A stretch of DNA of 64,000 bases from Branchiostoma floridae. Taxonomy: Eukaryota; Chordata; Leptocardii; Amphioxiformes; Branchiostomatidae. The number at the start of each line of letters is the position of its first letter. Within the stretch, counting starts at the first letter, position 1. The DNA lies in contig NC_049979.1 of the NCBI RefSeq assembly GCF_000003815.2, positions 17,404,437 through 17,468,436 on the forward strand, written 5' to 3'. Of this stretch, positions 21,169 to 46,468 are shown one piece after another. Below the pieces are notes generated by a model. The model ran no database searches, was not told the DNA's origin, and was given only the letters and a program-made list of their open reading frames with translations. The position numbers and the translations under genes are program-made.

Positions 21169-24100
21169 CTAAATCTTCCCTTGAGGCCCAAACAGATCTC
21201 GGTAGCATGGCTTCTCACAGTATGGCTTTCCGTCATGCTTAAGGGACAGAAGAAAGGGATAGATTAAAAGGATGTATTGTCTGCAAAGAGAGTTTATGGC
21301 GTACATATAATATCATACTGGAATTTGACATAATTGATAACGCTTTCAAAAATTTCTACGTGGAATCCACTCCAAATCATCTAATGACGGCGTGCGAGGA
21401 GAATTAGGAACTTTTCCTATTATGATATCTGCTAAAATTCAGCTCATTAAATACTGGTACCGTTTGGTAAACTTACCTGAGGACTCTCTGCTTCGCGATG
21501 CATACAATACTGTATTTACTGGTGATCATGACTGGATTAATCATGTTAAAGACATTCTCAATTACCATGGCTTTGGACATATATGGGTGAAACCTGAGTC
21601 GTATAAACTAGATTACATTGCCGACCAACTTCGCTACCGTCTACAAGATACATTTATACAGGAGTGGTTTAGTCGCATAAAAAGCAATTCAAAACTGTCT
21701 TTTCTTAACAAATCGAAAAAGTGTTATGAACAAGAGACATACCTTTATGATATATATAACTTTGAAATTCGTAAAGCGATAACCCAGTTAAGAATCAGCA
21801 GTCATAAATTGAACATAGAAACAGGCAGGTATCATAATGTAGCGCCTGACCAAAGGTTTTGCCCATTCTGTCCAAAGCAAATTGAAGATGAATTTCACTT
21901 TGTCATGATGTGCAGTAGGTACAATGTTTCACGTAATGAGTTATTCACATTCCTCGAATCAAATACAACAGATTTTAAGAGACTCAATGATACAGACAGA
22001 TTTAATTATATATTCAGATGTAATAACTCCCACAATGCTAAAATAGGCAAATATATTAAAGACTGCTTTGTCATAAGAAAAAATGCCGAAACTCATAATT
22101 AGCCCCACTCGATTGTAATACAATATCAATGACTTAGGCTAGCTCTCATTGTTCTAGAAATTAGGATGCCAATTATTTCATTCTATATTCGAATATTCAT
22201 AATCTGCATATGTACTGCATAAGTTTGATACTTGTTTTAGTAATAAGGATGATAAGTTTGTTTCTTCTTTTTTTGCCATACATTGCACCGTGTACGATCG
22301 TTGCGCAATAAAGTTCTTCTATAATGTTGCATTGAATCATGATTCTATAAAACTGTAAGGCTCTCAAATCTGACTTTAATACACAGTGATTTGTGTGACT
22401 TCAGGACTTCATGCAATGATAATATTTATGGAAATCGTGGTAAAAGAAATTTTGAACATCTTATTCTATGTCTATGTATCGCGCATTACAGATTGACAAG
22501 AACAAATCTGAGAGTGGCTACTGTGCTAGGAGGCGTGATGAAGGTACAGACTGGACAGAGCCTAGAGGCGCCATGATAATTCCATGTCTAAAGCAATTCA
22601 TTAGTCTTCAATCTCCATGTAGTGCGAGGTACTCTCCCAATCTTTTTCGCTAAATCCCCTATACGCTTCATTTTCTGGCGAGCCCTTGTTACCTCCCTAC
22701 CTTGTTACTAATTATTGTAACAGATTTCAGACGTAGTCCCGTCAAAGTAACATGTAACCGTTACGTACTGTGCTCACGCAGTGTGGATAACATGGAAGAT
22801 AAAATAGGCTGGTTAATGTTCAATGCAAAGGCGCCCTTGCTCTTACAATGCAGGTCAGCAACACTATACCTCCCAATGTGCAGACGCGCGCTCTGGCGAT
22901 ATGACTAAAAAGTACACATCACCACGATAAACCAGTGATGTCTGCTTGATGTTGATTTGATTTTATGGATGGCATCCACGCGAGCATTAATTTTAGGCCG
23001 TTTAAAAAAGTTTTCAGTCATGCTGAAAAGCATACAAAGCAGCTGCTGCAAAATGAACAAATATATATGTCGTAGGCTAAAAAATATATATATTGGAAAC
23101 ATTTACTAATGCCATATAAAAAAAACGTCAATTCCTAGGTCGAAGAAGATATGAAAAAAATATGATCTCTATTGGTCGGTGACCCATGCTTTGTGTGTTT
23201 GTTCATTTATGAAAAAGTCCTAAACGCTAAGATTTGATAATTAAGAGATTTTTGGCCAAACTTTTTATTCGCACGCTCGCATCATCGATATAATCAAATT
23301 AAAGTGGCCTACTGTCAACTGAGTGTGAAACATATCATAAGTAATGTCACAACTGATTGAATGGGTCTTATCAACTGTAGCTGATCTATGACTGGTATAT
23401 CTAATTTTTCGAGTCTTGTATACCTAGATGATCAGTGCAGATATATCCAAAAACAGTTTGATATTGTTGTATTTCAGGCTGTGTATTTCAAGTATTATCT
23501 TCCTATTGCAGCCATACTCACCTCCGCATGTCTGCCCTGCTGTAGTACTTTATTACAATTCTCACACCGCAGGCAGGCCCGGTGCCAGTCCTTCCCCAGG
23601 GAATGGAACCGCTCCGCTGAAAATACATGTATGGGACAACTTCAACGGGGAGGATTGGCAGTCAATACGGCATATGAACGAGATGGCGTGCCAGTGTGTG
23701 GAGAAATGCATCAGATTCCTAATGAATTCCTATCGCCTTACATCATCGATTTTCATCCTTGGAATCCATGAAATAATAAAGTTTGGTTCCGTTTAACCTA
23801 GCCCCACCCTCGTGTTTGGAGGACTGTGAACATGGTAGCTTCCAATATCAGCTGCAGCCTCCTTCATTGCCTCCTGTCCTTGCCTTTTATGTGTTTATGT
23901 AGCCCCCATTGTAAAGCTTCTGTTATGACGTAGTTTTGCGGTACCTTTGAAATATGACAACATCAAAACGCTTTTAATTCCACTGACAATAGTCCTCGAT
24001 CCTCCCTGGTGATCATTTCAGTTCCCCGTCCACAATTTGCCTTGAATCTTTGACATCAATCAAACGGAATTTGATTCTGATGGCCAAAATCACATCTTTA

Positions 24101-27100
24101 TGGACCCACTACAAATTTGAATCTGTAGTCATGAATATGCCCACCACTTCCTGGATGTGATTGCTTTTGCAAGTGGCAATTAGGGTTTCTATTCAGCCGT
24201 TAATAGGTCTGGTCGATAAACAGCAGACGTTTGATCACCACAGTGAAACTACTGAACGGTTTTACATGTTGATGGAGCTGTCAATCACTGCACGGATCAT
24301 GACGTAACGACTCCGAGCACAAAGACTGCACGGGGACTCAGATATCAAACGGGTTGTAGAAAAGGGCTTTGATATGCTTTTGTGGTTCCTTGTAATTTAA
24401 TCATATTGCCGCCACAGCAGCCTACCGCAGCACCGTAAAACTCGCCTTGGGACAGTGACTCATCTATTTACACATCCATCCTAGCAGCTAACGTTACACC
24501 AGCTGCATTTCAGCTGTGTCAGCATTATTTCATTACCACCTTCTGTGCTGTCTCTTCGGCTCATCAAATAAGTAGTCCAATTACACGTGAATAATAGTTT
24601 ATGAAAATCATTTGGTTATAGATGAGAGCGAAAACTATAGCTAGGAAGTGCGTAAGGGAATCTTCTACCGACCTCTGTAGTCTGTCTTTTATCAGTTACT
24701 TTTTATAATACGATTTTCAGCACGACAATGACATAAAGCAAGCGCCCCCGTAGGGTCTGGTGATGGCGACGTGAATACAAATGTATTTTCTCTGATTATG
24801 ATGATTAATAACTGGTTCAAGTCTGACCTTGAAGTCGTGCTCCGCAACAGGAGACGTAATTTTTGCAAGTGAAGCAGAACAAAATCTTCATAAACCCATT
24901 ATGCCTATTATGACGCTGCCCAATGTCACCTGTATCCTTCCCTGAAGGTTAGACTTTGTTCAATGGATACCCTCACCCTACATTGTCATATGCGTAATCT
25001 AACGGGGAAAGTAATGCACACCTAACATGAAAGTGTCCCGTATTCACTCGACAATACTTGATCTCGGGATCGCTCCGGCAGGATTTGTGAGAGATTCCAA
25101 TCACAAAGGTGCACGCCATCTGCCACCTCGCGTACTCACGGCACCTTCCACTGTACGGGCTCGAACTGTCATGAATGAAAGGTCAGAATGGCGCATATTT
25201 CATATCTGATCACTTATATTTTAAAGGGTAATCTGTGTCAGCTGGCTCCGTGTATTCATCATGATATGTATGTTATCTTTCCCAACAACAATACAACAGA
25301 TTCGCAAGTCTTTGGGCTTTTGTAGTCTACTGTCCCCTCATCCCATCAGTTGTAGTTATAACGCTTGGGAAATTTAGTTTTGTATGCTTCGTCGATCTGA
25401 GGCCCGACGGTAAGCCCACGTACAGAAGATTTGGACCAAACACTGCGATGATTACGTGGGACTCAGCTGTGGCCTTGCAGTGCCCTATGCTGGGGGCATG
25501 CTTTTGAGCCGTGGGCTCACTGAAACAAAATTGCTGGGTAGCGCTTCTAGTTGTTTGGAAACAAGATTTCATGGCTTTTTTGCTACAGCAGCAGAGATGT
25601 TACCCAGATCATGGACCATTAAAAAGATAATTATCAGCTGTCAATACCCACTAAGTGATGGCTACCTGCCAAGGCCAAGGTCCAAATGTTATGATGTTAC
25701 TTTTGCTCTTGCTTTCGTTCTAGTTCTGTAAATCAGTATAGTCAGGTATACATGCTGCTTTCCCACACAATAATTACATTTCAGCAGCAAGGGCATCCGT
25801 TTTCAATAAAGATATAGTGCACAGAGCATTGCAACCGTCCTGAACAAATGCACGTCATTTTATGGAAAGTATTGTACGATTGTGTACGCACTGTGTACGA
25901 AGGCTCTCTTGCTACTTGATGGAGACCATATTGTGCCATATTGTAAGGACTCTTAGATCCCTCTTCAAATTGCGCTCTTAGCTTGCTCTCCGGTCCCATC
26001 TGCACATTTGCTCACTCAGTCTGGCCGGCTCAACCGTATCAACTCTGGACATGACGTCATGGAGTGGGCGATGGTCAAAATGGCTCAGTCCTCAATATAT
26101 CACAGCATCTTTACCATTTAGGTAAGGGAATAAACGGGCCGGAATAACCACCTATTGGAGGTGTGTAAATTGCTGTTCATTAACCAGTGTGGAGAAACGG
26201 GTTTCCCTCACACCCACACAAAAACACACAAAAATGAAAATGGCTAAAACGAGACAATTAGGGAAATGTATGATAATTGGCTGCGTATGATTACTACCCT
26301 ATGTATATGATCTTTTTGTCCTGTGAAGCAGAACAAATAAATCCCCGGGGACTTGTTGTAGAGGACATTAAGCGGAGCAGCACAAAAGAAAACAATTCTA
26401 TGAAACAATAAAGAATTGTTGTCCATCTTGGACACAGCATATCGGGATTTGTATAGCACTGAGAGAAATAAATTTCCATACTCTTATGGGGTTTTTCATA
26501 CTGCATACATACAATGACAACAGATACACAAAGATATCTAAACGTCCTCTGTGAAGCTGGCATCCTAACGTATGGTGATAATCATCGATCCTTTCTGAAG
26601 AATAATTGATGAGACGTTCCCAATGCTATCAATCACGAGTGACCTAAGGATCACAGATACAGGTTTGACCGCAGGAACACGTGATGTAGCTCGTCCTTCG
26701 TGTGTTCCTCGATCCCATCACACTGAGCATCCTCTGGGAACGGAAACTTACTGAAGGGCATCATTAAAGAGCTTAAAATATGGTGCAAACATTGTCTCTT
26801 TGTTGGACCAGCTGTAACTTTACCCTTATCTCAGATAAATAGTCAGCATCCATACATTTACTGGCATTTCCGAACTAGTCGGTTGGTTCGTTGGTCGTTA
26901 GACATGCGAAGGTAACATATTTCTTGCTGATACACATCCCATGTCCACGGTCGATACATACAGGAGATGGCTCTTTCTCCCATCACCGCCCCCATGTCCG
27001 TACACACACCAGAGACTGACTGGGGTATATACCTGTGTTACCTGTAAGACCACATAGTGGGACATGTAGGCGTCACGTGTTGATGTTGTTGTCCTTGCGT

Positions 27101-28090
27101 TCAGGAGTGGCCTTGAGTCGCATAATATCAGCTACATTCCTGAGTTAGGTTTAACTACTACTACACAAGCTCCGTATGGTCAAACCAGGGCTCGCTTTTC
27201 GTGTAAATCAATTTGCGGAATGAGAGATAGATTTTATGGCTTTTATTGTTGTAAATGTAGGTCATCCATAGCTATTCACTGGAGCAATTATATCCAAACT
27301 GCTCTTTTGAGAGGTAAATATCAAGATTCCAAGCTCAAAATCAACGGAAATAGTAGCTACTACATCAACATCATATTATATAAATACAAAACCCGTCCTG
27401 AGGAATGTTCCATTCACACCATTCTCAAGAAATCAATTAGGGGGTCAGTCTGAATAGTTCGGCCCGTAGAGGCCGGTAAGGTGTGACTGACCAGCAGAAG
27501 TGGCAGTTATCGTATGCGTAATGGCGTCTCTTAACATGATTATAAGCCAACTAAACTCTCAGAGGAATACCGTGAAACCATACAGCCAGTTATCTCCTGA
27601 TGTACACAGCTATATAGCATGTTATGTTGGGACACCTCGAAATCGCTTGGAGGCATCATTAAGTGATCAGGCAAATATGTTCTGACGCCCTTAATAAGGC
27701 GTGGCTATTGTCCGGGCTGACACTGAATTTTTGTGTTTACACTTGGGTATGAGAATCTCTGATTTCTTTTCACTAAATACAAACCAATGTACCAAAGACT
27801 ACATGGTCACGAGAACGTCAACGTTAACGTAGATCACATGATGGCCTTGGTGTGATGGGTGGGGAACAGAATGATCATGGCAGCGGGAAAATCACTGTTT
27901 GTCTAACGACTGCCGGAATGCTGTACATAGTTAAAGACATGAATGGTTTTTACATGAAGTCTGCGATCTGAGTTAGATGGAGCACACAAATTGGAACCCG
28001 CAATTTGCGAACCTATGCTTATTACAGAGACTGCACGTTAATGTACTTACCAAAATACACCGGCTTCTCGCATTTCGGACAGTTTGGCAT
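21169..28090 (-). CDS. CRIP-type single-LIM protein, paralogue A (short C-terminus)
   Basis: Three exons join in phase: 28051-28090, 23522-23616 and 21169-21237, giving 67 residues. Exon 1 encodes [13 protein letters not shown], exon 2 the [18 protein letters not shown] block, and exon 3 [20 protein letters not shown] followed by KI and a stop. Zinc ligands C4, C7, H25, C28, C31, C34, C52 and C56 are all present, so the LIM domain is complete. CRIP proteins are small LIM proteins thought to act as adaptors; vertebrate CRIP1 has 77 residues. In paralogues B and C, exon 3 ends in a donor GT right after the codon following LFGP. Here that position (21178-21179) reads GG, so the frame runs on to a stop and the usual Gly-rich tail is absent. 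Intron 2 carries a LINE tail. Confidence 0.8.
21341..22320 (+). mobile_element. 3' fragment of a non-LTR retrotransposon (ORF2 C-terminus)
   Basis: An open frame at 21341-22102 (about 250 residues; GTG at 21392) reads like the region after the RT domain of a LINE ORF2: [20 protein letters not shown], then [15 protein letters not shown] and [18 protein letters not shown], a Cys-Cys-His-Cys zinc-like motif. No RT catalytic box is present, so it is a 5'-truncated copy. An AATAAA lies near 22308, after which the element seems to end. It lies in intron 2 of CRIP gene A in the opposite orientation. Confidence 0.75.
22960..22991. repeat. Arm-like fragment related to the 35115-35431 fold-back element
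   Basis: The sequence ATTTTATGGATGGCATCC followed by ACGCGAGCATTAAT matches, with a few differences, the arm and inner flank of the fold-back element at 35115-35431. It appears to be another, partial or diverged, copy of the same family inside an intron of CRIP gene A. Confidence 0.5.
23617..28050 (-). other. Intron 1 of CRIP gene A, nothing recognised
   Basis: I see no exon of a known family, RNA gene or clear transposon in this 4.4-kb intron. The scattered short frames have no motif and no phase-compatible splice sites. Confidence 0.45.
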
Positions 28091-28670
28091 CTTGGAGAGG
28101 AAGGAAAATTACGGCACGCCTTCTAACTGGTGGTAGATGCTCTTTTTCCAGCGTTGTTTTGAAGCCCGCCTTTTTATAGGTGTGTATTGTTACATATGAT
28201 CGCCTGGACCGGGCCTCAATCCCCCAAGTAATCACCAGTTTTGCACACGGCCCTACAATAACATACATTTTGAACCACACCGAGGTGGGCATGACAGGAG
28301 AAGCGCCATCTGTCGTGTTCTCTTTAAAGTGAAGAAAAAAGAAAAGGTTGCAAAATGGTCCTTAAATCTATAGGCCGAATCGTCACAAACAGTACCCTTA
28401 AATACTAAGATTAGGGGAAGTTAACTTTGCACCTCCAGCTGAAACCCAACGGACAGCCTCTGAAGTTTTATCCGTTACCACCGACCGCTTTAACAAAACG
28501 GTTCCCTCTGCATGCTTTATTGCACGGGTTACAGAAGAGGTCATCCAGCAGGAAAGATCGTTGTCTGTGGCTGCGGTTTAGATTCCTTACACGGTCACTG
28601 CGTTACCTCTTATTAGTTTTTCCGCCTAGATACGTGCATAATTGAGACGTAAGTAATTCTGCAAGTAATG

Positions 28671-28676
28671 TTTATT
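28671..28676 (-). promoter_or_regulatory. Polyadenylation signal AATAAA, CRIP gene B
   Basis: This is a canonical hexamer on the minus strand about 840 bases downstream of the CRIP B stop and upstream of CRIP A exon 1. It is a reasonable transcript end, supported only by position. Confidence 0.35.
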
Positions 28677-29510
28677 GACATAAGTGGAAGGGCGAGGTAG
28701 AGAGTAGCACATTAAAGCAAATGTAGCTTGGTTGATTTTATTTGCAAATTGTGTTGCCACAAGATTTCGCAAAATTGTTTTGGAAGTGCCTTCATGTATC
28801 CCATCTGTTTTGGCTTAGATTATAACAAAAAAAAGTCTGCCAAAGAAGAAGTCGACCTGGTTGCAATTGTATAGCGTCATATAGTGAGACAAGCCTTCAA
28901 CACAACATGACATACAAGAGTAGTATAAATAAATGCAGATGACATAACAGTAATAGGACATTATCTAGATAAATCACATGCCCTACCGCAAAAGATATTC
29001 GCTTTGTTTACACCAAGTCATTTCTATAGTTGCGGTTTTGGCAACAAGCTAACCGTTTGAAAATTCATACTTTTGTTTTCAATGACAAACTGTTCACCAA
29101 TTTAACAGCAAATGTTCTTAACTGCATGTATGGAGAAAAACTGTATGTATGGAGCATGTGTGCCGAATGATATAGTTACTCAAGAAACTGGATAATGAGC
29201 ATGTGGCAATAATAATAATAATCATCTGGTGTATTTTGCCAGCCAGTAGGTACCCAATGAGAAATGAGGCTGTTTAACGTGGTCGAGGCACACATATCAT
29301 AAGAAGCTATACAGATGACTGGAGAAGTCAAGATCTATCTATAAGGTTAACTACGTGTACATCACAGTTCTCATTGGCTCAATATACAAAAATGCTTTGC
29401 TCCAAATGCAGAGAAAGAGCAAGGAAAACAAAACTCTGCTTTGTCATCAGCAACATCATGACAGAATGACATAGACAGTTCGCCATTCGTATATCCCCGC
29501 TTGTACACAC

Positions 29511-31673
29511 TCAGGTTGCCGGGGCGTGACTCGGAGGTATCTCCTCGCCTTCATACGCGTACGATCCTACTCCGCCGATATTCACACCTGAAAGAGAAAT
29601 TGACGATAGAATAAGTGTTGAAAACTATCGATTGTCATATGAATTGCTATGACAATAATGGCTATCGATCATACAACTAAATTTCAGATCGGGTTCCGGA
29701 TTTGTATTTCATTTCTGATTTTACTTCGCCTGTCTGATAAGTGATAACCATCCTCAAGACCAAAAGGCATGAAAACGGTTACCTCGCGGCCCGAACAGGA
29801 CTCCGTGACACTTCGTGCAGTACGGCTTACTCTCGTGCTGAAATATAAAACGTTTCGGGACATGTTATTTTGTCATACTCAAACAGCAACATGTAGCATC
29901 AACTCTTCCTGTATCCCATCCTCACCCTTACATTAATTTCGTCATGAATATTTCTAGCCGTGAAATTTTCATTTTCTAGCAGCGCCATCTGTTGAAGTTG
30001 CTATGATTTACATGACACCTGTTTGTTCTTCGTGACTGTCCTCACTCACCAAATGCGATCATTTTTGTGCCTAACATGATAAAAGAAGGGTGATGCTAGT
30101 ATGAGTCGTTTTTTCTGTTCATAAATTATTACGGACCATTTACCTTTGGACCTGTACTCGGAGCTAGCCTGAATTGCGGCCCTCTCACTACTTGCCCCCC
30201 TCCCTCTCGTGTGAGTGTTGTGGCACCACAACTATAAAAACTGACCTCGGCGTGACCTCCCGGGCTTAGAACTTTGTTGCATTTCTCACAGCGGAGACAG
30301 GCTCGGTGCCAGTCCTTCCCCAGTGAGCGGCGCCGTTCAGCTGAAAAGAAATGTGTACTGTGTTGGTACTTTATATAAATTTCCCTAGTTATTACAACAA
30401 CAAAAAACTATTCAAAAGCTGCATCCACTACACATTAGTATACATTGCTGTGTATTGTGTTGTTATTGATAAAGCCAGGTCAGTACACCCTGAGTCATAA
30501 CACTGTGGTATTCATGTATGTACTAAACATTCCTCATAATGACCTGCGTAAAATGTAGTCATCGCTAGATAATTGTAGTCTCTAACAGACTCCCGCCTGG
30601 CCGAATTGTAATAGGGGGCTGTGGGCCTTGGCCAAGTTGTGAATAAAAGCCTAGTAGGAGTTTATTAGCATATGATCATGAGCGATCTTGGCTGGATAGA
30701 CTGCAAAAGACTGACTGAAATCCCAGCAACGTATTTGTCCCTATTTGGCCAAATTCTTCTCTTTTGTCATCCAGCTGACACGTTTGGAGCCTAGGACATA
30801 GCTGCTGGGTGTAGACTCTGTCAATGGCCCGAGGGGGATTCTTTTTAACGGTAAATCACTACGTAGTGAGTTAAGGCGGGATAACAGTTTAAACGCCCAG
30901 GTCATTCCCAATAACAACGGTTAACCGTTCGTTTTGACTACGTGTAACTTCTGATGACATGAGAACTTCATGGGAAAAGAGGGATTAGTCGTTCTGACGT
31001 ATGTAGGTAAACCAGTAACAATACATTTAAGGCGTGCTCTATTTCCACTATAGATGCATCATAAGCCTGACATTTAAGTAGGTTAAACTATTGACTAACC
31101 ACTGTGTCGGTTCAAACCCTGTAATTTTCGACAGTTACACGCAGTTAGATTTAGTTTCCCTGTATATGTCCTGGTCATATCGTTCTGTTGTGGTCCCCAA
31201 GGTTTGTTTAAATGTTCCTGGTCCAATCAAATCCTTGTTATATCGTACTCCGTACTAGTGGTAATGTATTAAAACTAAAGGTAATCAATATGAAACCACA
31301 GGAGGCCCAGCAAAACATGTTAGTGTAGGTTTTATGATTATCGTAACTTATGATTGTTATGACCTATGGTATCGACTATGCAGCGATTGACAAACGATAA
31401 ATACACCAAGTAAATTAGTTATGTTACGGCAACTCCCTGATAACTGTCATGACATAATCTCACAAATATGTCATATCATCGTCTATCATACCAGCGACGT
31501 CTGGCTTTGGATCGACGTTTATATTATTTTCCACCGCGTGTTCAATATATTCTCACGTAGAAGTAATGAAATATTGACAGTTAAGAGTTGTACCCATTTA
31601 AACAAACCGTACATATTTGAACAAATTACTCACCAAAATATACAGGTTTATTGCACTTCGGACAATTCGGCAT
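29511..31673 (-). CDS. CRIP-type single-LIM protein, paralogue B
   Basis: Four exons join in phase: 31634-31673 ([13 protein letters not shown]), 30246-30340 ([20 protein letters not shown] and onward to HAE), 29783-29837 ([18 protein letters not shown]) and 29511-29587 ([16 protein letters not shown], ending HAPAT), giving 88 residues. All donors and acceptors are canonical and phases are 1, 0, 1. LIM ligands C4, C7, H25, C28, C31, C34, C52 and C55 are visible. The last zinc knuckle is one codon shorter than in A and C (CTKCH instead of a CxxxC form), so the eighth ligand is C55 or H56. The C-terminal tail is about ten residues longer than in vertebrate CRIP1. It is the most compact of the three tandem copies and resembles CRIP1/CRIP2 LIM domains. 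Partners cannot be inferred. Confidence 0.88.
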
Positions 31674-32120
31674 CTCAGGATATGGCAATGTCTCTTCTTG
31701 CGCCTGAGGAATGGTCAGTGGTTGTTGCCTTGTCTTACTTTACTTCAGATGTGGCTGAGGTACGTTTAATCACCTAAGTGTATTCCACAATGACGGGTGA
31801 GAACTGTATTTAACGTGAGATGGCGTCACAATGACTCCCACGATGTGCGCAGGGCGGGTTGAAGTGACGGATTATGTCGCACGTAAACAGCTCCCCAAAG
31901 GTTAGCTCTCTCAGCTCAGTGGAAGTACCGGTTTGTTTGGGGTGACAGGGGCAGTTGATAAGACTTGAGAGCCTGGAATGGCGCCCCCTATCAACACCAG
32001 TAAAAAGTGGCAAGTCATTTGGGATGAAACGTTTATGAAGGTTAGACGACATCCAGGTAGAAAGTATTCAAATACAATTCAATCTCTACAAGTAGATAAA
32101 AAAACGGAGATTTACTTCGG

Positions 32121-32156
32121 GACGTGTTTCCAGTGACATCCGTCACTCTTCTTCAG
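32121..32156 (-). repeat. Hammerhead-like motif of a dispersed retroelement
   Basis: On the minus strand the sequence reads CTGAAGA, a short hairpin (AGTGAC, GGAT, GTCACT), then GGAAAC and ACGTC. This matches the core order of a minimal hammerhead ribozyme (CUGANGA, stem II, GAAA, cleavage triplet), as reported in Penelope-like retroelements. Stem I pairing is not convincing here, so it may be an inactive remnant. Confidence 0.4.
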
Positions 32157-33340
32157 CGTCACTGGAATGAACTCATTTGGATGAACACTTTGTCAACTCC
32201 ACGAAAATGGAGGTACAGTTTTCAGCAACATGTGCGTGTGTGTTTGGTGCGTTTTCGGCACAACCTCCAGAACACAACGTGCGATTGCGATGGTATTTGG
32301 TACATGGGTTGGTGGTGTTGTCCTGACGATCAGGTTTGATTTCGGGCCTCCTGGTGGTTGAACTTGATACTGTAGCTTTTTGCTTTTCTGTTTTTCTATC
32401 TGGACATTATGTGCCCTTGATTTCTCGGCAACGTATGCCCTTTGATGTAAGTCAATAAACCCTTGGACAGACTGTGATTATCAAGTATGAGGAAAGGTTT
32501 GGGGAAGGTGAAGGTCGATGTCAATTTTGGCCCCGAGGATCTTGCTTGCACTGGAAAGGCGTTTTTGGTAAAGGAACCACGGGTGTTCATAATATTCAAC
32601 ATGTAGGTATGTTAGACAGAGGTGTAAACAATCAAATATGAATTATGCTAGGAATGAATGTATATAATTGATGAGGAAAATCTATAGTTTCAATGTTATT
32701 CATAATATTGGACTTTTATCAACATGTCACATCTGTACTTTATGGGGAAATACTTACAGGTGCCAACTATGCAAATTAGGGCGTAATTTGCATAGTTGAT
32801 GTGAACAAGCGATAATTCCTTGGCAAATCATGTATTTTTTCATACTTGTGACACTTGCAAGTTAGGGGTATACATCACCATGCAAACATTATGTAAATGT
32901 GATAGCCATTTGTATACTGAGTAATTCATTATAAAATGGAATTCTGCTAGAGGAACATACTCTACATTTTCGCACGTACAACGTATTCTATTTTGGTAGA
33001 CCATCATTCAAAATATATTGCGCTAATTATAGCCTTATGTGTAGTTAATGAGACAAGATAAACCAAGAAATTTACAAAATTTTCAATATTTCACGGAGGT
33101 CTCTGAACTCTTGTTATATCAGTTTACTTTACAAATGAATGCGAATCTTTCGTCCGTCAGCATGCATATTGCATTGAAGATAAGGAGCGCAAGTGGACTA
33201 ACGTTACCTTTCCCATCACTATAAACAGTGTCTAAAATAATAGTTGGCTGAAATGACCATGATATCAGAAACCCTTGATAAAATCATACGTAAGAATTTC
33301 AGGAAGAGCTCATGACACGTAGAGTCATTTAAAGCATTAG

Positions 33341-33346
33341 TTTATT
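33341..33346 (-). promoter_or_regulatory. Polyadenylation signal AATAAA, CRIP gene C
   Basis: A canonical hexamer on the minus strand about 600 bases beyond the distal terminal exon of CRIP C. It could end transcripts using that exon; supported only by position. Confidence 0.35.
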
Positions 33347-33944
33347 TCTACATATCCGTTTGTCATGTACAAAATTTAAACCAACAGTTTGAGTGAGTTA
33401 AGCATGTAGATAAATCGAAGATAAGTCTAAGTCGGGTAGGCCCCTGGCCCTCTCTATGTTAAATCAAACATAGGCTGGCGTACTATCAAAATACCGTACC
33501 CGATAATGCAGTAGCATATACATCTCTGTCCTCCGTTATAGAGACTACTTAAGGCGTTATGTTTCTCACTATACATTGATATTCAATTGCCAAAAACACA
33601 CCCATAAAGTCAATCGACCGTTATCAGAACGCTATCAAGACGAATGGATCTGTTACGGCGCTTTGTTCATAAAGTAAACATAGATGGTACCGAGGCGTGG
33701 TCATAACTGAGATTAAGTAGACATATTAATAAAACGTGACGCTATCACATCGTAAATTTCCATAAACAAGATTATAATCAAGCACAACGATAAGAACTAG
33801 CGCAGCAACCAAAGACTAATGAAGGTAATATACGTACAAACGTTTGTGTGAGCAGAAAAAATATTACGAAATATTCATTGCCGTCAAAAAGCGATACTAA
33901 ACACAACAGCACGTGTACAGCAGACGTGTTCTGCCCTCTCTACT

Positions 33945-33985
33945 CTACTTGTAGGAGTAGGAGCCAGCGCCTCCGGTGTTCACAC
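33945..33985 (-). CDS. Alternative distal terminal exon of CRIP gene C
   Basis: After a pyrimidine-rich acceptor (CTTTCCCTGTTCCCTATGCAG-like, ending 33986) the frame reads VNTGGAGSYSYK and a stop, in the same phase 1 as the proximal terminal exon 34677-34732. Spliced to exon 3 it would give a 77-residue protein, exactly the length of vertebrate CRIP1. It is either an alternative last exon of CRIP C or the relic of a lost neighbouring paralogue. Confidence 0.7.
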
Positions 33986-34676: not shown

Positions 34677-37600
34677 CTACTTCTTGTTGTCGTGATCGTA
34701 CACAAAGGAACCTGCCCCGCCAATGTTCACGCCTGATGAGGAGAGAAGGTAGATGGAAAAGCAGAGCCATGTTTAACATTACAAGAATGACTTGGAAGAA
34801 GTACAGTTGGCATCGGCGACAGATTGAGGAAAGGGTCAGAGATAGCGGCTGAATAAGACACGTTTAAATCACTTCGCATCAGAAATCCCCATCTATATAC
34901 GCACCCTTTGGTCCGAACAGGACGCCGTAGCACGGATGGTTACAGTATGGCTTCATGTCATGCTGAAACAAAATAGCAACGGTAACTATAACAACGCATA
35001 ACATGATCAAGATGCTGACACATACGCTAAATAGAGTTTAACACACTTATTGAAATGACAAGGTTAAACAATAATGGTTTGCAGCTGCTTTCTCAAACTT
35101 AAGTACATTATCCACAGCAAGTAAATTTTATGGATGACATCCTCTGCAGACTGCAAAAATAGTGCGATAGGGCGAAAAAAAACAAGATGGGTAAAAAAAA
35201 CAAGATGGCTAAATTCTAAAAGATATTCACATAAAGTTGTGATGACTGTTGTAAAAAGAATTAAAAGGACAAAACATGGTATCAGAGCCAACACGGCATT
35301 CATTCCTGTATTTAAGACGTGTACTGGTATGGTAAAAGTGACACTAGTGTGGTAGACTGGCATCACCAACAAAGTTGGTAAGCACACTCATTAATGCGCG
35401 CGCGGATGTCATCCATAAAATTTACTTGCTGCGGCCTAAAGTGAAAAAACATCGTAATTCTAATATACCATTTCTACCGTTAGTTCTCATGAAACTTCAA
35501 GTTCACACATTACAAAGCCAACGTTGTAACGTCTCGAACAGATTCAACGGATGGGCAGTTACGACAAAGTGGTGAATGCTGCTGAAAAGGCAGACTTACT
35601 AATGGCTTTGAAGTAACCATCTAATCAATACCACTTCACTGCAGGCTTTATTACTGCAATTATCTCCCAAACCGCCGACTCCAATCGACATAAGCCTTTA
35701 ACGCGAAGCAGAACCGTTCTCTCTACGCTCTGGCAGGCGCAAAGTTTCAGCTTCGTGTGAACTTGGATTCCTGAGTCAATTTGGCGTTACGGTTACCATT
35801 AAGGTGATGGTCTGGATTTCCTCTGTCTAATTGAGTTCAGGTTTATGTTGACTGAAATGTCTGACTGAAGCCGGTGTCCGCTCACTGGTAGATCATGTCG
35901 TTCCCGTGTAGATGGATTGGGAATGCCGTGAAAGGGCACGAGTCAAGCGTTTGTCGCTCTCGTTCACGATCACATAGCTCTTAACTTCATTGTTTACTCC
36001 CAACAGAGGTAGAATTGATCTTCCAACATATGACATGGTTAGAACAGACGTCAGAGCCCGGCTCGATGTCACTACTGACGCCCTAGGCCCTGACCTCTGT
36101 GCATTATTTCCTCTTCGCCTCATCTCTTCCGACTGTTGGCGATCTGCATCTGATTTGTAGTGTTATATAAGCCTTGCATAACAGGAGACATTTAGGCAAC
36201 AGCTTGCTGTAAAATACCATCAGCTCACTTGATGGCCCTTGATCTGTTTGCCCTTTTGACAGGCCTTACCTCACCAAAATGACATTTCCAAGAAACCTGT
36301 TCATTCGAAGACTAAGTAACGTGTTTGTCTGGAGGAATATGTGATACGAAATTTGAGTACACAGTGTCGGTAGATTGAAAGGTATGTATTACCGAATCAC
36401 TGATTTGTTACATGTGAACTCACCAGGTGATTACCACCAGGAAATATGACTGTAACGTTATAACATTGGCGGTGTGACATCAGGCCAGTCATGCTAACAT
36501 CACTAGTATTACTCATCATTGTACCTATCTTTGTGGAACCCAAGAGGCAAATACTTTGATCCAAAGTTAGAATGAAAGATAATGCCCCGGATGACACGTT
36601 CAGATACCGCATACTTTGGGTAAGCCACTGGGCAATTAGAACCACTTTTCCCCGTCACACTGGCTGTGTTGTACGGAGAGATAACTGTGTTGTACGGAGG
36701 GTTGTGGCCCTGCCGCTGGCAAGACCACACATTCCGGGCGGCGCCGTTGTGTAACAAGCTGCCTACGGCTACACCTGCCTCCTTTGGTTACAATATTATT
36801 CAGTCTCCACACCTCTCTTCGGTTAACCTTGCGACCTCATTATATCCGTGAATATATACTGTCTGAAATGATAGAAAAATTCGCCTGGTATGTGCCTCCG
36901 GCTAGTGAAGATATCACTTGAAGATAAGGCCACGTATTATCATGTAAAAAAAGGTCACATAACGAAACAATATCACCTGGTGTTTGAGCCTTGGTGTTTT
37001 GTTGAGTTGAGATGTACTGTACTTTTGTACGGCACATGAAACCTCGGGTAGATTCAACCAAAATGATGAATAACGTTTTTCAAGACAAGGTCAAATGTCT
37101 TAATCAAACGACGTTTGTATTTGTTGTTTGTGTGTTTTAAATAACGATGCATGTGTACATTGTAATGGTATTGATAATAGTTTCGGATGATATCTGATGC
37201 TAACAAAAATGTAACTGTAAAACTCTAAAAGGAACCATGGTCTGCCTTGATTTGTGCACTTGCCTCTGGCGGCTCTCACATACCATCGATCGAACGCGAC
37301 GTTTAGGTGGTGCACTTGCTGTATAATTGATGGTGTTCGGAGGATAGCTGCAGGACATGCGGCCTGGTTTAGATCCGGACAAAGCAGACGTTCATGAGAG
37401 CTTAACATTCCTGGGTCTAACATTAATTGTTACCGATTCCCATTCGCATCGAGGTGGACAGCCGAAGATGCAGGGCTGATGTCAAGATCCTATGTTTTCC
37501 TCAGTGTCAGTTGGAATATTAAGACTGGCTTGGCTGTATCAATTCGCCACACCACGGCGCCAGCCAGTACTAAACAACTAGTGCTTAGCAACACAAGATA

Positions 37601-40600
37601 TTTTAGATGACATCGATTTGAAACCCTTTGCAGGGTGAAGTGTATCGCGCGGCCTGTTTATTTTCCTTTGTACAGACGTCAAGGTTTGGTGTAAAAGCAC
37701 CTCGGGGACATGAAATGGAAGCCCTGGAACAGACGGTTTAGAGAGCACGTAGTCAACCAATTTCACGCTCAAAATCCCCTTTCGATTGTTGAACAGGTGG
37801 CTCCAGTTAAACACGTGCTATGATGAAAAGTTGGAGGGTACGGTGGTGAAGCAGACTACCATGACAACTCTGTGACTCTATCCCTCTCTTCCAAAATCAG
37901 TTAGTGACCTGATATCTTGCAAAACAAGTATATTGCAACTGTTATCTAATCCTGATCAATTTCAGATTACTAATGGAACGTGAAGACGATAGTTGGCAGG
38001 CCCGCTCAAAGATACACCTCCCCCCTCCCACATATACATCCTCCACACAGAATGAATGACAGTGAGACGACCCGGTATGATCCCAAACATCATTCATGGA
38101 GTTCTCTACAAGGCCTTGACAGTAAAAGTGACCTTTGACACGTCACCTGATTATTCAGGTGAAAACAGTGTCAGTGGCTGATACTTAGCTGGCAGCCCTC
38201 CGCATTGACCTGTCGGATTTCCGTACCATGTATCACCCATGGCCTCCCACACGTCACGTCACTAGACACGTTACAGGACCTGTCTAACAAACCTCTCACC
38301 AGCCATGAAGGTTAGACGGCTCAAAATGGTATTTGTCCGTTTGGTAATGCTCTCCTGGCGTGTGAAACTGGGATAATCGGATTTGGGGAGCCAGTGTTTT
38401 GCTCTCCTTCTCATACAGAAGTAATGGTGTCATGTAGACCTATATAATGCTGTGTACATCCTGAGCTGCGGGTACACAATGCACTTGCCTCAGGTATTAG
38501 ATCATGGGTGACTTGCCAAGGGCTGGTCTATAGCTACGAGGGGCGTGCAATAAGTAATGGTCCTGACCCACTTCCAGTTGTCTGATCTAAATGAAATTTT
38601 GTATGTGTAATAATTCATATCTCTATGGGTTATGTTGCAAAAGACAGCTCTGAACTAATTGTGGTTTCTGATTTACTGGTGTTTGAACTTAGTCAGGTGC
38701 GAAATGGACCAGGTGTGAAATGGAACCAGTTGAGTGTCGCGCAGTGATCCGGTTTTTGTATTTGAAAGGACGCACACCAAAGAAGACTTTTGATGAAATA
38801 AATGAAACTTATGGTGATGATGCCCCATCATATGACCTTGTAAAACGCTGGCATCCTGAATTCAAACGTGGCTGGAAGTCTGTGGAAACAGCTCCCAGAC
38901 CTGGTCGTCCCTCTTGTGCCATTGATGAGGCATCAGTTGGAGGACCAACCTGGGGTGTCCTACAAAATCGGTGTCCAGAGCTGCATCAAACGATGGGAGA
39001 AACGCATAACTCTGGGTGATTCCTATGAAGAGAAAGACTAATAACTGTGCCAAGTTTCATTAATCTCCTGCTATGGGAAATGGGTCAGGACCATTACTAA
39101 TTGCACGCCCCTCGTAGTCCAAAAGCGGACGGAACGGACCCACTGAAGAATTTCTGGGTCATCTTTCTGTTGCCTCTTTTTACTACAAAATTTGATGTGT
39201 GTACTTTTACAGACACTAAAAACAAATCTAAGCAAGTGAATCAGGGATAATAATAATGTTCTTTTTGCTTTTTCACGAGCATGAATTTCTATCAACAATA
39301 TAATTAAGCAATACTTCACCTAGAAGACGTTCAAGTAAAGGCTTGCAAGTATCATCACTCAAAGAGAAACACGGTTAATGATAGATTAGCATTTCAAGAC
39401 ACAGTTTCAGCCGATTAGGCTTGAATCAGTTAATGATAGTTGATGATAATTAAGTGATACAACGTTTAGTGATATTTTTACACGTTGTTTTCAGACCGCT
39501 GATCCAACTTGCTGTTTGTTTTATTGTGAAAGTGATTTTAGGTTCATTTAGTGATTGCCACTCTCAACGAACTATAACGTTTGTTGTGACAAGATAAGAA
39601 AGTGAGCACACAGTCCCGCCCTGTTTAAGCGATAGTACAGGCAGTCACTAGCCCAGGCAGCTTATCTCGGCTCTTATAAGATAACAGGACAGCTGAGCTG
39701 CAGTTTTAAAGGTCAGTGGAGCTTCCAAATCGCTTTTGCTTCTGGGTGACGGAGCTGTCCAGTTATTTCCCACACGTGCATGTACATATACATAAAATAG
39801 AGTTATGCGCTGAGTGTCTGTGATAAAAGCCTTGCCAAGGCCATACCACCAATATGTCAAACTTGAAAAACAAATTTCGTGTCTCTATAGATGCCTAAAC
39901 CATGAACCACCCCATGTAATTTTGACACTGGTGACTTAGCCGTCTTTTTTGCGATATTTTGTTCCGCCCTGTAGGACCGGAGATGTGCTGTCAGTATCTC
40001 GGCGCGTCCGACCGAGACCTGCCGAAACTGAGCCGGTCCGGAGCCGACTCGGGTCAGCTGTCCGTCCGAGAGGAACAACAGAGACAAGCTTCATCTGCTC
40101 CACTCGCCCAAATCACGCCTCCGGTTACTAAAATAGGCGGAGGATGACTGAATTGCGTCCTCTTGGACACTGCATGGCGTAACCGAATGTGAGGTATGTC
40201 TACGCGGCTCTGTCCCATCTTAATATGGATGTCTAAGGCGTAAACTTAAGATGACTTCAAAAACGGAACCCTCTGGAGAGAAAGTCTCTACTGGGGGTCG
40301 TAACTTTAAAGAAAACGCACAGTGCACCTTTCAACGCGAATCCCGGGAGAGGATGCTAGTCTTATCGGAAAACTCCAGCAATGTTGGCAGTAAAGTCTCT
40401 TCACCTGTCACTACCCTGACAGCAGTCTACACATACAAACACATGTCAGTTGAACTGAGTATTAACACCGATCTGGTAGACCTATGATGTATTTTGGAGC
40501 TCTGCTGTTGAAAAATGTAAATCAATGTAAACGATTTCAGTATCGAACGCCAATGAGTATTTTAAATCATGCACTTTTCATTTTGATTGGGAAGGAAAGT

Positions 40601-43600
40601 TTGCAAAAAGACAGGCAAGAGTTCCGGGTACTCCGTCGTGAGGATTCCCTATTGTTGGGTTGGTAAATCCTCAAGGAATGTTACAGTGTCTTTGAAGATG
40701 TGCATTCGTGATTGTGAAAGGGTCTTTGTTTGATTCAAATTCCCGCGATTTTTTCAATTCCTCAACCCTCTAAATTCTTCTACATTCCATGACTAGTTTC
40801 GTCAGTTCGTGTCGACTTGAGTTACGCGTTTGATTCCGTTCTCTCTCACTTGTGTCCACTCAGAGAACAAGTCATTAGCATTCTTTAAAACTTAGATCAC
40901 CAATACACTGATGTCATTATGATGGAAAGGACAACATGTCATTTTCTCTGAGGAATAATAGTAACAATCAAAGTGTGCCAACATGGGCAATTTGGCAAAT
41001 TACTTTATCAGATGTCAGTCATAAGGGCAAAGTTCGAAGTTTTGTTCCGGCAAAGTGATTATTTGTGACATTTTTGGAGTACATTTCAAATAAGTCAGCA
41101 GGTAAACAAAACAGAAGCTGCTAACCCGTGCAGTGCGCGCCCCACCTGTCCATGTTGTCACAACACCTGCCGGAAAACACACTACAAAGTAACCGAACAG
41201 GCACTCCTGTGTGTGATCTGTGACGACAGGTCAGGGATATGTATTTTCCAAACAGAGTACCGACCTTGTCTGTTTACATAGATCACACCAGTTGATATAC
41301 ACACGTTTACCCACTTCGCACCAATTCCTGAAGATGGCTTGTTCGTAAGTGACACTCGCTAAAATGCTTCGGTTCATTTCATGGATTTCTCCCCTGCAGG
41401 GAGATTCATAGCTGTCTAAAAACTGAAACTAAAGAACCCCATTGTAAAAACTAAGTCACTCTAGTATATCATAAGACGTCCACGAAAAGGAGTCTTCATA
41501 TTTAGCCTTTTCAAGATAATATGTCGAAGGAGCCAACATATTGTGTTCCATTGACTTATGTCAGAATGCCCCACTCACCTCAGCATGACTGCCGGGAGTT
41601 AGCGTCTTGTTACATTTCTGGCACTTCAGACATGCGCGGTGCCAGTCCTTCCCGAGGGACGTCACCTTCTCCGCTGTCAGAAAAAAAATTAGTCATTATT
41701 AATGGAGCTTTAATGTAACAAATTATAGTACGTCCATACACCTGTGTACTATGTGTACGCTTGATATGCCAGAAACATGTAAGCTCGTAGTTGAGCTTTT
41801 ATCTTAAGACAGGTGTGACAGAGAAAGTATTGTTATCAATGACTCGTACTTGATCAGCGAGGTTAACAACGATTACATTGTACCCAACATGTACGTTTAT
41901 TTTAGAAAAATGTATCACATAAATAAACGATGGCCTTTTCACCTCTGCCGGCCAAATGTTGGCTACTATATAGCTGTGGCAGATTTTTCGGTGCTTTGAC
42001 AGAAAGCAAACCTAAATCCCAGCTTTTAGAGGATCTTCTTCTCGCTTCAGTCCAAAGGCCATGCTTATCTAACAACGACCCAATTATCTAGACCTCCGGC
42101 CTCACTGCAACTCTTCCAACAAAGCTAACTGTCAACATATCACACACACATGACCTGGCTTAGACAACTGCGTGCCAGAACACCGACATCATCGCAAAGG
42201 TACCAAGCCACAGACAAAGCCTTTGTTTAGAAAATCCACGGCTGAACATGCCTTTCTTTATCTTGTGACTTGGGTCACCCCTTGTGGATCAAGCGGGGCC
42301 TTTTCTTGGACGCCGCTGTATCGTCTGGCTAAGTCCCATGTTACCTTCTTCTGTGTAACTGTGAGGATCGCTTTACGAGTATGGTATTCTACGTTATTCA
42401 ATTAAACAGGCTCCACGAATAGAACAGAGAAGGTGGTAATGGTGGAGAAGGTGACTTGTCTGAGGTACAACAGAGGAAGGGAAAGGACAAACAAAGGGAA
42501 GCTGACTAAATAAAATAAGCTGCCGCTGACATGTTCCCTAACAGCGCGCACTCTCGGAAGTTGTTGACATTGTTTGAAGGCCCATTGAACTTGACACTAC
42601 TCCTGGATCTGTGAGCAACCTTTGATCAATGCTGTATTACGACAATATAAGTCATGTGTTACTAGCGATTGATTTCAATAAAAACCCGTAAGTTATTTCA
42701 AAGAAATGTAATTGAAAATGCACAAAGCTGGAAGGTCTTAATTAACGATTTTCTTTATGAAAAGTTAACGAGCAAGTAATAGCGTAATGCGATAGGCAGC
42801 ATGACACATCCAATTAGTATCGTTTTATCGTCTTTGCCTTTTGTGTTCAGAGGTTGACATTGCGGTGGTACCACAGACAGCGTGCCTGCAATAATTCACT
42901 CGGTCATGGGAGCCTGGATTAGTGCAGACGATACTATCACAAAACACAAGTGTAACTTTGTTATATACATGGTGCGTGTTAAATTTTTATGTAGTAGCAG
43001 GATATGTTCCCATGAAAATGAGCGTCACTTTTCACCGACGTTACACTCCATTTGGCTATTTAACAAAATAGTGTATTATCTAATTAGTCTGCCAGTCCAA
43101 ACAGACCCAGAAAGCTAAACGGCCATCTGGTAATTCTGTATGACGTTACATTGACGCAAGGTCACATCTTGTCACTTCACATGGTGAATACTAAGCTTTG
43201 ATTTGCCAACCGCCCTGAAAGGAAACGTGTATGTTCGATAATCCATCTATAAGGTTGAGACATGTATCAGATTGTAGCCGTCCCAAGATTTGGGCAGAGA
43301 TCGTCCTGCTCCAGCATCTTGATCAGAGTTTGCGTCAAATGAGGCATTTCCTCTTCCATTCAATTCATGTACGGAAAGTGCACGATAACTGATATCGCTA
43401 ATCCTGATAGGAAGAAGAACTTATTCATTGGGGGCTTGTTGAAAGGGAAAGCCCCAAGATGGAGTGTCGGTAGTGAGCGAGCTACATGTATGGCTGTCAC
43501 ATACATCTTGCACAGAAACGCAAGGCTAAAAGAAGTTTCTACTGAAATGACCGGGAGGTGATGTTGGTAGAGGTTTGTTTATGACAAGAGTAGCGGCTTG

Positions 43601-46468
43601 CTATGTTCGGGGTGTGGTTGCCAGACCGGTTGGTGCCTAAAAGTCGGACTCCACAATTTTCTCTACTTACTGAGCTTATGGAAGAAATGCTGTAAACGTA
43701 AACATCGCACATCCTGGACTGTGAAAATACGCCAGCCAAGGAGCGTTACTTACGAGTTTCAACAATTTGAACTATCCTTTGTGCCAAACTGTGGCAAACA
43801 CCACGACACAGCGAACTCCATAGCAACAATGAATAAAGGAAAATTAGTACTAATGGAACCTTTGAATTCAAAATCCCTTCTTACGTCATGTACAATGGGT
43901 GAGGAAATATGACATCATGTGGAAATGATGTGGCATTGCGCGACGCTTCAGGCAGACATTAAGTGTTGCTAATACGTCGCGTGACATATAGATGGACATA
44001 GAGAAATCCTTATACTGTATCACATTCCAATGTACAAGAAGAAAAATAATGAAATTGATAACACCATTTTGTTCCAATACCATTTTGTTCCAAATTCGCA
44101 CTTCGATGAGAAAGGTCCGAGCCGCTTTGAAAACCTATTAAGAACATTTATAGCTCAGGCGATGACGTACTCGCGTAGTTGCGTGATAAAAACGGGCGTG
44201 GCACAATTTTGTTTGTTAGATTAGAGATCCAGGTCATTACCAGCAAACACCAAGTAGTGTGTGGTGCTGGGCCGGGCTATCAACAGTTTTCACCAGCGCG
44301 GTAAGGCATGGCGACAGGAGCTTGACCTTGAGAGTGAGTGCTTGCCCTTGCCCCCCACCCACTCTTCAAAAGCACGATCTGACCGAAGGCATAGCGGCGT
44401 TCCTCTGTCTGCAGTCGCAAACAAAGTTTACAATCTGTGTCATGGCTGCCTTTGGCAATTACAGATAAAGGTTTGAACCATTGTGTATGGCGAACACCAT
44501 ACAAACACAGCTAACATGCCAGGCGCAGCACCAAAGAAACATGCTCCAGTCAGACCGACATTTAACGTTACTCTGTCACCTTTTCCAATCGGTTGACTAC
44601 TCAAAGCGGAGTGCGACATTTTTTCTGCACACCTAGGTTTGACTACTGATATGGGTAACAGAGATTCGGTATCACGGTTGTAAGGTTCCCTTAGATATGT
44701 TTAGTTTTGGCAGATTACACAAACACTAAACATGGCACCATTCGTTGGTGCCGAGAAAAAAAAGAAGTAAATAAAAATGGATCTGGGATACCTTTTCAGA
44801 GCTGCATCCTTTCCTCATATAAAGGAAGGAGAAATTGGTTCTTTACTTCTTGTTTCTTTTGAAACAGTAGGTTCACATTGTTTGCGACAGGTCAGAGGAC
44901 AAAACGTTGATTGGTCGTAGAAAAGAAGGGAATTTTCATTTTACATCTCAAATGTGAATTGAAAAAGTCTGGAAGGGCTTAAGATCCCCACCCAAGAGTC
45001 TCTGGTAACTAAAGAAACTTCGGCTAATATCAGGCATTAGGCATACCACACCTAACCACGCAATAACTTGATGACGTCATGTACCACATATCAAAAACGG
45101 CTAACAGCGGTGCACATCGACGACGGTATGCAGTCTTGACCGAAGATCGAAGATCCATTAACGCCATGCACTGTGTCCACTTTGAATTAGAACTGCTACT
45201 TCACCAGACAAAATACTACGGGTTCACAGAACAACGTTTCTACAGGAAGAGAAATAAACGCAGTTTTGTTGCAGCATCACTGCTGCATGATGTCACTGAT
45301 GCGGTGTCCTAACAACGGTGACGCCTCTCTGACATGGATGGAAAGGCGTTCCCGACGTGGGAGGCGACACCTGGATATCCGACTACTTTGAAGGTTTGAA
45401 TACTGGACAATTACCGAGACAAAATTACAAAAGGTCTGGTCAAAAGTATGCGACTGCATCCAGAAAGAATGTTGCTATTCATGTCACGGGCTTGGAAATC
45501 AGCTTCCGCTATAATCTGTGTGGAAGATTGTATTGTATGATGCCTATCCGAGACAGAGTTCCGTTCTGTTGTACATGTACAATGTATTTCTGTCCCGGAC
45601 ATCGACATTGATGCTTATAATCCACCGCATGTTTTTCAACACGGACTTGTCACAGTTGGCGATAAATCCCTGGCCCTAATCGATGGACCAGTGCGGGAAT
45701 AGAATATAAGCGACATGCTTTAATTGTGCGGCGCGCTTGTCATGCTGAAACCCTGATAACATCGGTTTCCAGGTTTGGTAAGGCAGCCAGCCGCTCTGCT
45801 TCCCGTGATATGCCTTGATTGTATAAATAAGTCACATCATATCGGCGGTCTCTCAGGATAACAAGTGTTTTGGATGCCTCGGAGGCGGTCGGAGTGATTG
45901 TAAGAGAATGACACAGACAAATTAGCGAAACCTTGTAATGTTTACGCGATATTTACCGGAACAGACTGAATAATAATATGTTGCGACGTTGTAACGTGTT
46001 TTGGCTCTCAAGCGCTGGTGGTTATAAATTATTCCGTAGAGGAGTGCAATAGCTGTTGGTGGCAAAACAGCGGCCCCGCCTCCATGACAAATATTGGTCC
46101 CGTAGTTGGGCGTTGTAAACTCAGCAGCGGGACTTTGTATCCCGCTGAACATTGTGTCGTAGACAACCTATTTACGTACTATTCGAGTCGACGCCCATTC
46201 ATGATAGTGGGGAACACGGACTACATTGTTGTACGTTTCATGGCTGGCAAAGACATGAACTCAGTCAAAACGTCATTTATGCAAATGTACGATATAACGT
46301 TACTAAACCTAGCCGAATGACCCAGGTACCAAACGGTCTCGCTGCGGCAATAAATTGTTTACAGCCCGATATGTGTAGCCCCACCTGTCGGTCGCAATAT
46401 CATAATAAGTAAAAAATTTATGCCTTACCAAAGTACACTTCCTTGGTGCAAGTTGGGCACTTGGGCAT
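34677..46468 (-). CDS. CRIP-type single-LIM protein, paralogue C
   Basis: Exons are 46429-46468 ([13 protein letters not shown]), 41579-41673 ([20 protein letters not shown] and onward to HAE), 34905-34962 ([19 protein letters not shown]) and proximal terminal exon 34677-34732 ([18 protein letters not shown]), giving 82 residues. Phases are 1, 0, 1, as in B, and all splice sites are canonical. LIM ligands C4, C7, H25, C28, C31, C34, C52 and C56 are present. Of the three copies this is closest to vertebrate CRIP1/CRIP2 ([22 protein letters not shown]). Introns are long: 4.8 kb, 6.6 kb and 172 bp. A second terminal exon lies 0.7 kb further on at 33945. Intron 2 contains a fold-back MITE and a deleted mariner. 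CRIP proteins are intracellular LIM adaptors; the exact role here is unknown. Confidence 0.88.
35115..35431. mobile_element. Fold-back MITE with 28-bp perfect inverted repeats
   Basis: The arm beginning CAGCAAGTAAATTTTATGG (35115-35142) is exactly inverted at 35404-35431, and the match extends outwards with one mismatch (CCA/CCG). The interior has no transposase. A related arm occurs at 22960-22991. It sits in intron 2 of CRIP gene C. Confidence 0.85.
35432..38536. other. CRIP gene C intron 2, left part
   Basis: I recognise nothing in this 3.1 kb apart from short open frames without motifs, such as 36397-36645 and 37100-37423 on the minus strand. Confidence 0.4.
38537..39114 (+). mobile_element. 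Internally deleted mariner-type transposon
   Basis: Inverted terminal repeats of 34 bp begin CGAGGGGCGTGCAATAAGTA at 38537 and recur inverted at the right end (39081-39114) with one mismatch. TA dinucleotides at 38535-38536 and 39115-39116 form the expected TA duplication. The 578-bp body retains the start and the end of a mariner transposase but lacks the middle. It lies in intron 2 of CRIP gene C, opposite in strand. Confidence 0.9.
38720..39025 (+). pseudogene. Truncated mariner transposase
   Basis: The frame from 38720 encodes the N-terminal helix-turn-helix region of a mariner transposase: [20 protein letters not shown], then [15 protein letters not shown] and [17 protein letters not shown]. 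After about residue 75 the frame breaks. A different frame then carries the typical C-terminus [20 protein letters not shown]. The catalytic DD34D core is missing between the two, so the protein cannot transpose. The deletion and frame change explain why this is a non-autonomous copy. Confidence 0.88.
39117..41578. other. CRIP gene C intron 2, right part
   Basis: Nothing is recognised in this 2.5-kb stretch. The overlapping frames at 39857-40147 and 40251-40487 have no family motif. Confidence 0.4.
41674..46428 (-). other. CRIP gene C intron 1
   Basis: This is a 4.8-kb intron. I see no conserved exon or clear transposon. Frames such as 43598-43912, 45079-45312 and 46018-46320 (plus) lack recognisable domains. 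Confidence 0.4.

Follow-up and report, generated by a model that had tools for sequence, protein, structure and literature searches.

A LIM domain of the kind considered here is a zinc-stabilised docking module, and human CRIP2 and CRIP3 carry tails of the GVN-[IT]-GG type. In human CRP1, according to PMC3305314, both cytoskeletal localisation and actin bundling require the glycine-rich stretch that follows the LIM domain. An HxxH motif near the second zinc site is given as specific to CRIP proteins in PMC11671023. Section 7 of that 2024 paper reports that a two-LIM CRIP is predicted in B. floridae, and two adjoining single-LIM genes in B. lanceolatum. The paper leaves open which of these gene models is wrong, the one or the other, and treats the time at which two-LIM CRIPs originated in deuterostomes as uncertain.

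We analysed a window of 64,000 nucleotides from Branchiostoma floridae (contig NC_049979.1, positions 17,404,437 to 17,468,436), numbered from its first letter. The minus strand carries three complete predicted single-LIM genes, here called A, B and C, which lie head to tail and span positions 21169-46468. On sequence grounds, we read the locus as an old tandem array in which three single-LIM CRIP genes code for protein and are transcribed separately, with a probability of about 0.82. It would then be an ordinary old gene cluster of a known kind; neighbouring lancelet CRIP genes are already in print (PMC11671023). Like the B. lanceolatum genes described there, the units are neighbouring single-LIM CRIPs in a lancelet, and they may represent the same locus or an orthologue. 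For B. lanceolatum the paper mentions two genes and doubts the models, whereas the array has three units, one of them without a tail and another with its tail exon in duplicate. The value of the locus is that a concrete three-unit gene model argues for one side of the published ambiguity between a two-LIM CRIP and neighbouring single-LIM genes. It also bears on the published doubt over the origin of the two-domain vertebrate CRIP2.

Gene models, duplication and constraint

The features of the array are as follows.

46468-33945, minus: gene C, predicted from reading frames and splice signals
46429-46468, minus: gene C exon 1; 40 bp, 13 residues, ATG, phase-1 end; donor gtaaggcat (99.0 percentile of GTs)
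41579-41673, minus: gene C exon 2; 95 bp; from reading frame, splice signals and tblastn
34905-34962, minus: gene C exon 3; 58 bp; ends FGPK-G, phase 1
34677-34732, minus: candidate terminal exon C4a of gene C; 56 bp, 17-residue tail, tail score 63
33945-33985, minus: candidate terminal exon C4b of gene C; 41 bp, tail VNTGGAGSYSYK and then the stop, tail score 65
31673-29511, minus: gene B, predicted from reading frames and splice signals
31634-31673, minus: gene B exon 1; 40 bp, 13 residues
30246-30340, minus: gene B exon 2; 95 bp
29783-29837, minus: gene B exon 3; 55 bp, against 58 bp in C, a difference of one codon; knuckle CTKC
29511-29587, minus: gene B terminal exon 4 (B4); 77 bp, 24-residue tail, tail score 64
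28169-28178, minus: TATA box TATAAAAAGG, starting 88 nt upstream of the gene A ATG
28090-21169, minus: gene A, predicted from reading frames and splice signals
28051-28090, minus: gene A exon 1; 40 bp, 13 residues; acceptor-like cttcctctccaag directly before it (97.8 percentile)
23522-23616, minus: gene A exon 2; 95 bp
21169-21237, minus: gene A terminal exon 3; 69 bp; ends FGPQGKI and then the stop

The predicted proteins are 67 (A), 88 (B), 82 (C with 4a) and 77 (C with 4b) amino acids long. Exons 1, 2 and 3 of B and C end in phases 1, 0 and 1; in A, phases 1 and 0 are followed by a stop. Across the annotated exons of the three genes, AG is found at nine of nine acceptors and GT at eight of eight donors. 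Splice percentiles are ranks among the AGs or GTs of the strand under a general consensus matrix, whose scores are meant for ranking alone. The acceptor of B exon 3 ranks at only the 84.2 percentile. Those of the two candidate terminal exons of C rank at 99.8 (C4a) and 99.9 (C4b). The models bear out the first-pass annotation in its head-to-tail trio on the minus strand, its shared lengths of exons 1 and 2 (40 and 95 bp) and its phases. They also agree with the early end that it gave A, where exon 3 runs into a stop, with its extended tail for B, and with two terminal exons for C, here as candidates.

Local duplication had also been proposed, and it is supported; the reading frames are intact and under constraint. 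When A was compared with the window by tblastn, exon 2 of B was matched at 2e-15 and exon 2 of C at 7e-14, a homology far above chance. Residue identity over 64 codons is 78% for A and B, 72% for B and C and 69% for A and C. Over the same codons, base identity is 0.78-0.89 at positions 1 and 2 and 0.34-0.48 at position 3. Values of dN between units are 0.14-0.25, and synonymous sites are near or past saturation. For A and B, dN is 0.14 and dS is about 1.5 (YN00) or 2.2 (NG86); the dS range of 1.5-2.2 covers the computable pairs, and dS for B and C was not computable. Ungapped direct repeats of at least 40 nt between 20000 and 47500 comprised exon 2 (A, B and C) and exon 3 (A and C), and nothing else. 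The saturated synonymous sites, together with the lack of intron similarity in this search, argue that the duplication is old. Judged by these codon patterns, the copies are old and have been retained as coding genes.

Further units were sought in the window. A six-frame regular-expression search for more LIM-like exons, which is blind to LIM domains interrupted by introns, returned five matches; none was a CRIP exon and one lay in a B-box open frame. A tblastn search with the four predicted products (E up to 1) yielded 49 rows, of which three fell outside the 12 annotated exons (E 0.26-0.56).

CRIP identity and ancestry

The LIM domain PF00412 is matched by all four predicted products, at 51.8-54.6 bits (cut-off 22.9). 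Among solved structures the best match is rat CRIP1 (1IML), at 131.3 bits for C in its C4a form, 107.4 bits for B and 105.1 bits for A. Human CRIP2 LIM-A comes next and then both CRP1 domains jointly, or these follow in reverse order. Each of A, B and C has the full set of eight zinc ligands. The HxxH motif reads HAEH in the three units, as it does in 1IML and 2CU8, and is absent from both CRP1 LIM domains. The domain match, the HxxH motif and the best structural match uphold the CRIP type assigned by the first-pass annotation. Its description of a shortened last knuckle in B stands for the spacing, which is C-x2-C in B and C-x3-C in A and C, but not as a defect. Both CRP1 LIM domains have the spacing found in B, which is thus a normal variant and no damaged site.

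Rat CRIP1 has one LIM domain and the HAEH motif, like the units; its CX2C-X17-HX2C-X2-CX2C-X17-CX3C spacing is identical in A and C, and C also has CNHPC. Its tail is different: GFGRGGAESHT in the rat, of the GVN-[IT]-GG type in B and C, and missing from A. Vertebrate CRIP2 and CRIP3 share a GVN-type tail after the LIM domain with B and C, but have two LIM domains where each unit of the array is modelled with one. CRP/CSRP proteins (1B8T, 1CXX) also have a LIM domain followed by a glycine-rich motif, and B has their C-x2-C last knuckle. Conversely, both CRP1 domains are without HxxH, and the three CRP domains used here fall outside the CRIP group (99/98). CRIP2 is also set apart at the second zinc site, by the residue that immediately follows the third cysteine. 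It is histidine (CH) in human CRIP2 LIM-A (2CU8), whereas A, B and C have CE, CT and CN. Non-vertebrate relatives without that histidine are reported in section 7 of PMC11671023, in agreement with the three units.

In a tree of eight LIM domains, taken from the window and the PDB, the CRIP and CRP groups were split at 99/98 and A paired with B at 91/91. A tree of 11 LIM domains, four of them human sequences that included CRIP2 and CRIP3 domains, gave the same split (99/98). It paired A with B weakly (87/85) and contained no other pairing within the CRIPs; the CRP1 LIM1 branch is long in these trees, and the bootstrap of the 11-row tree was unsettled. By path length in this larger tree, C is nearest to human CRIP2 LIM-A and rat CRIP1, rather than to A or B. 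A clade of A, B and C is not in the best tree, and forcing it was not rejected (p-AU 0.35). The original interpretation keeps its CRIP type, phases, local duplication and C-terminal divergence. The trees favour neither its independent expansion in lancelets nor an ancestral chordate array, and they pair no single unit with vertebrate CRIP1.

PMC6559655 lists human CRIP1, CRIP2, MTA1 and C14orf80 together at 14q32.33. That listing makes an ancestral neighbourhood worth considering. In a tentative scenario, which we hold to be unlikely, the chordate ancestor would have had adjoining single-LIM CRIPs with GVN tails. Two of these would have fused to give vertebrate CRIP2/CRIP3, with CRIP1 left beside CRIP2 at 14q32.33. 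The lancelet array would have kept the pre-fusion state and instead altered its tails, that of A being lost, that of B lengthened and that of C made selectable by splicing.

Separate genes or a two-LIM fusion

Every unit has its own ATG and its own stop. The sequence TATAAAAAGG or TATAAAAGG has one match on the minus strand of the window, the site upstream of A, and the looser TATAAA[AT][AG]G has four. The 400 bp upstream of B and the 400 bp upstream of C contained no TATA[AT]A. AATAAA or ATTAAA occurs between the units, and there are 22 such signals in 19500-47000. At about one per 1.25 kb they are common, and hence of little weight as evidence. The sequence before the start of exon 1 is acceptor-like in A (97.8 percentile), ranks at 34.9 in B and ranks at 7.8 in C, where there is no AG. 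B4 has a single in-phase donor that keeps part of the tail, and this donor is weak (78.3 percentile).

The annotated exons were also chained according to phase, under a design that admitted no entry into an exon 1. This gave 23 in-frame paths: 12 with one whole LIM domain, four that skip the LIM exons and seven that reach a second exon 2. In these seven the second domain is missing its first CxxC, since that CxxC sits in exon 1. Two complete LIM domains would therefore require splicing into an exon 1.

The published two-LIM prediction for B. floridae (PMC11671023, section 7) raises the alternative that the locus is one gene for such a protein, with B and A as the halves of a fusion. The acceptor-like sequence directly before the A ATG would suit this arrangement, but could equally serve a 5′ untranslated exon. 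Moreover, B4 reads to its own stop and lacks a strong in-phase donor ahead of that stop. A has a TATA box to itself, and no in-frame path holds two complete LIM domains as long as splicing into an exon 1 is excluded. We consider a fused gene very improbable. The exon phases are interchangeable, and eight of the 12 one-LIM paths mix units, while four stay within a unit. Since the units agree in phase, joining exons of different units into one whole hybrid LIM domain would keep the frame as well. This would be compatible with one locus having alternative first exons and shared downstream exons, from which hybrid single-LIM proteins would be made. Shared downstream exons would not, however, need an exon 2 and an exon 3 under constraint in each unit, as is found here, and we regard such a locus as very unlikely. 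The weak signals for splicing into an exon 1, taken with the TATA box of A, favour separate genes. Separate single-LIM genes thus appear to be a better reading than fusion. A linker exon between B4 and A1, or hybrid transcripts, are possible.

Tails of the units and other features of the window

Segments of the form GVN-[IT]-GG-x-GS are encoded by C4a, C4b and B4. The minus strand was scanned for AGs after which a phase-1 open start runs for 10 residues or more; this gave 2360 candidates. C4a, B4 and C4b scored 63-65 and the best of all others scored 28. The latter, at 7008, overlaps a SPRY open frame in a different frame. Divergence at the C-terminus, a further claim of the annotation, is confirmed: A is tail-less, B has a long tail and C has two candidate tails.

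C4a and C4b have the same base at 20 of 32 positions, and either agrees with B4 at 22 of 32. Between C4a and C4b, 16 of 20 first and second codon positions agree and 3 of 10 third positions, although these numbers are small. The pattern is as would be expected of two old exons both kept for protein. A donor-like GAG/GTATGC (98.1 percentile) lies 13 nt past the C4a stop. Downstream of C4a, the first AATAAA or ATTAAA is reached only past C4b, at 33346. These two features suggest that the tail may simply be chosen by inclusion or skipping of 4a.

At the position of the exon 3 donor of B and C, gene A reads CAAG/GGAAGA. Here GG replaces GT, and the rest fits the donor consensus well. Past the old donor position, the frame reaches a stop after two further codons. 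No tail exon for A was found in about 21 kb downstream of exon 3; below 21169, the top score after the candidate at 7008 was 17. The scan thus indicates that exon 4 of A is absent or unrecognisable within the window. The GG may be a single allele or an assembly error; the missing tail exon favours a settled change in A over either.

The same losses raise the question of whether A is a decaying copy, a pseudogene in the making. Both donor and tail are gone, and A has the longest branch among the window units in the tree (0.26-0.29). In addition, intron 2 of A contains a retroelement-looking open frame of 253 amino acids (21341-22102, plus strand), which 103 bp separate from exon 3; an 18-residue stretch within it resembles the end of a retroelement protein by eye, and the frame has no Pfam match. 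On the other hand, A retains an intact frame, eight ligands, GT/AG at its remaining junctions and a TATA box, and its low dN from B contrasts with the much higher dS by either method. Decay of A is improbable in our estimate. A comparable doubt attaches to C4b, which could be the last relic of a lost fourth CRIP unit between C and B. It lies about 690 bp past the C4a stop, and it has diverged from C4a about as far as either exon has from B4. However, none of the 49 tblastn rows obtained with the four products lies wholly inside 31674-33944, and C4b is an intact exon with the strongest acceptor of the array. We find the relic doubtful.

If the locus is a cluster of three separate genes, each unit would be a small docking adaptor with one LIM domain and eight ligands for two zinc ions. 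The chief difference between the units is the short glycine-rich segment behind the LIM domain. A would have lost its tail once the donor after exon 3 ceased to be GT and the frame ran into the nearby stop. It would keep LIM-mediated partner binding and probably lose the segment that CRP1 needs for cytoskeletal localisation. B would act as a LIM adaptor whose acidic tail is longer. C may switch between two tails through use or skipping of exon 4a; with 4a included, its stop would make 4b 3′ untranslated sequence. Gene structure, ligands, tail differences and constraint are read from the DNA itself, and the roles of the tails would carry over from CRP1 by analogy. The array offers a natural comparison of tails on one LIM module, which is tail-less in A, long-tailed in B and would bear either of two tails in C.

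Several other features were observed in the window. Intron 2 of C holds a Mariner-type element (38534-39117) with 66-nt inverted repeats (82% complementary). Its open frame has a Mos1 HTH_48 domain and, at about 580 bp, the element is probably an internally shortened copy. A 562-aa open frame with a reverse transcriptase match (PF00078) at 33-1721 is probably a LINE-like fragment. Open frames with B-box and SPRY domains at 6792-10016, on the minus strand, belong to a TRIM-like gene. Further minus-strand open frames, at about 16155-18484, resemble a chitin deacetylase-like protein on visual inspection; four single frames from this region had no Pfam match. ARAGORN, run with bacterial settings, placed a tRNA-Leu at 17617-17685 on the minus strand, which is absent from the Rfam matches at gathering score and hence may be spurious. 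The only N run in the window, 100 bases at 58428-58527, is an assembly gap. A match to the full Metazoa_SRP RNA model at 57769-58055 scored 89.6 bits (gathering score 70) and represents a gene or a pseudogene; it is in keeping with an animal source of the DNA. On the plus strand, three exons joined by eye at about 53770-54660 match PF00291 and mark a PALP-family (cysteine-synthase-like) gene. An open frame at 63291-63821, on the minus strand, matches dynactin subunit p22 (PF07426).
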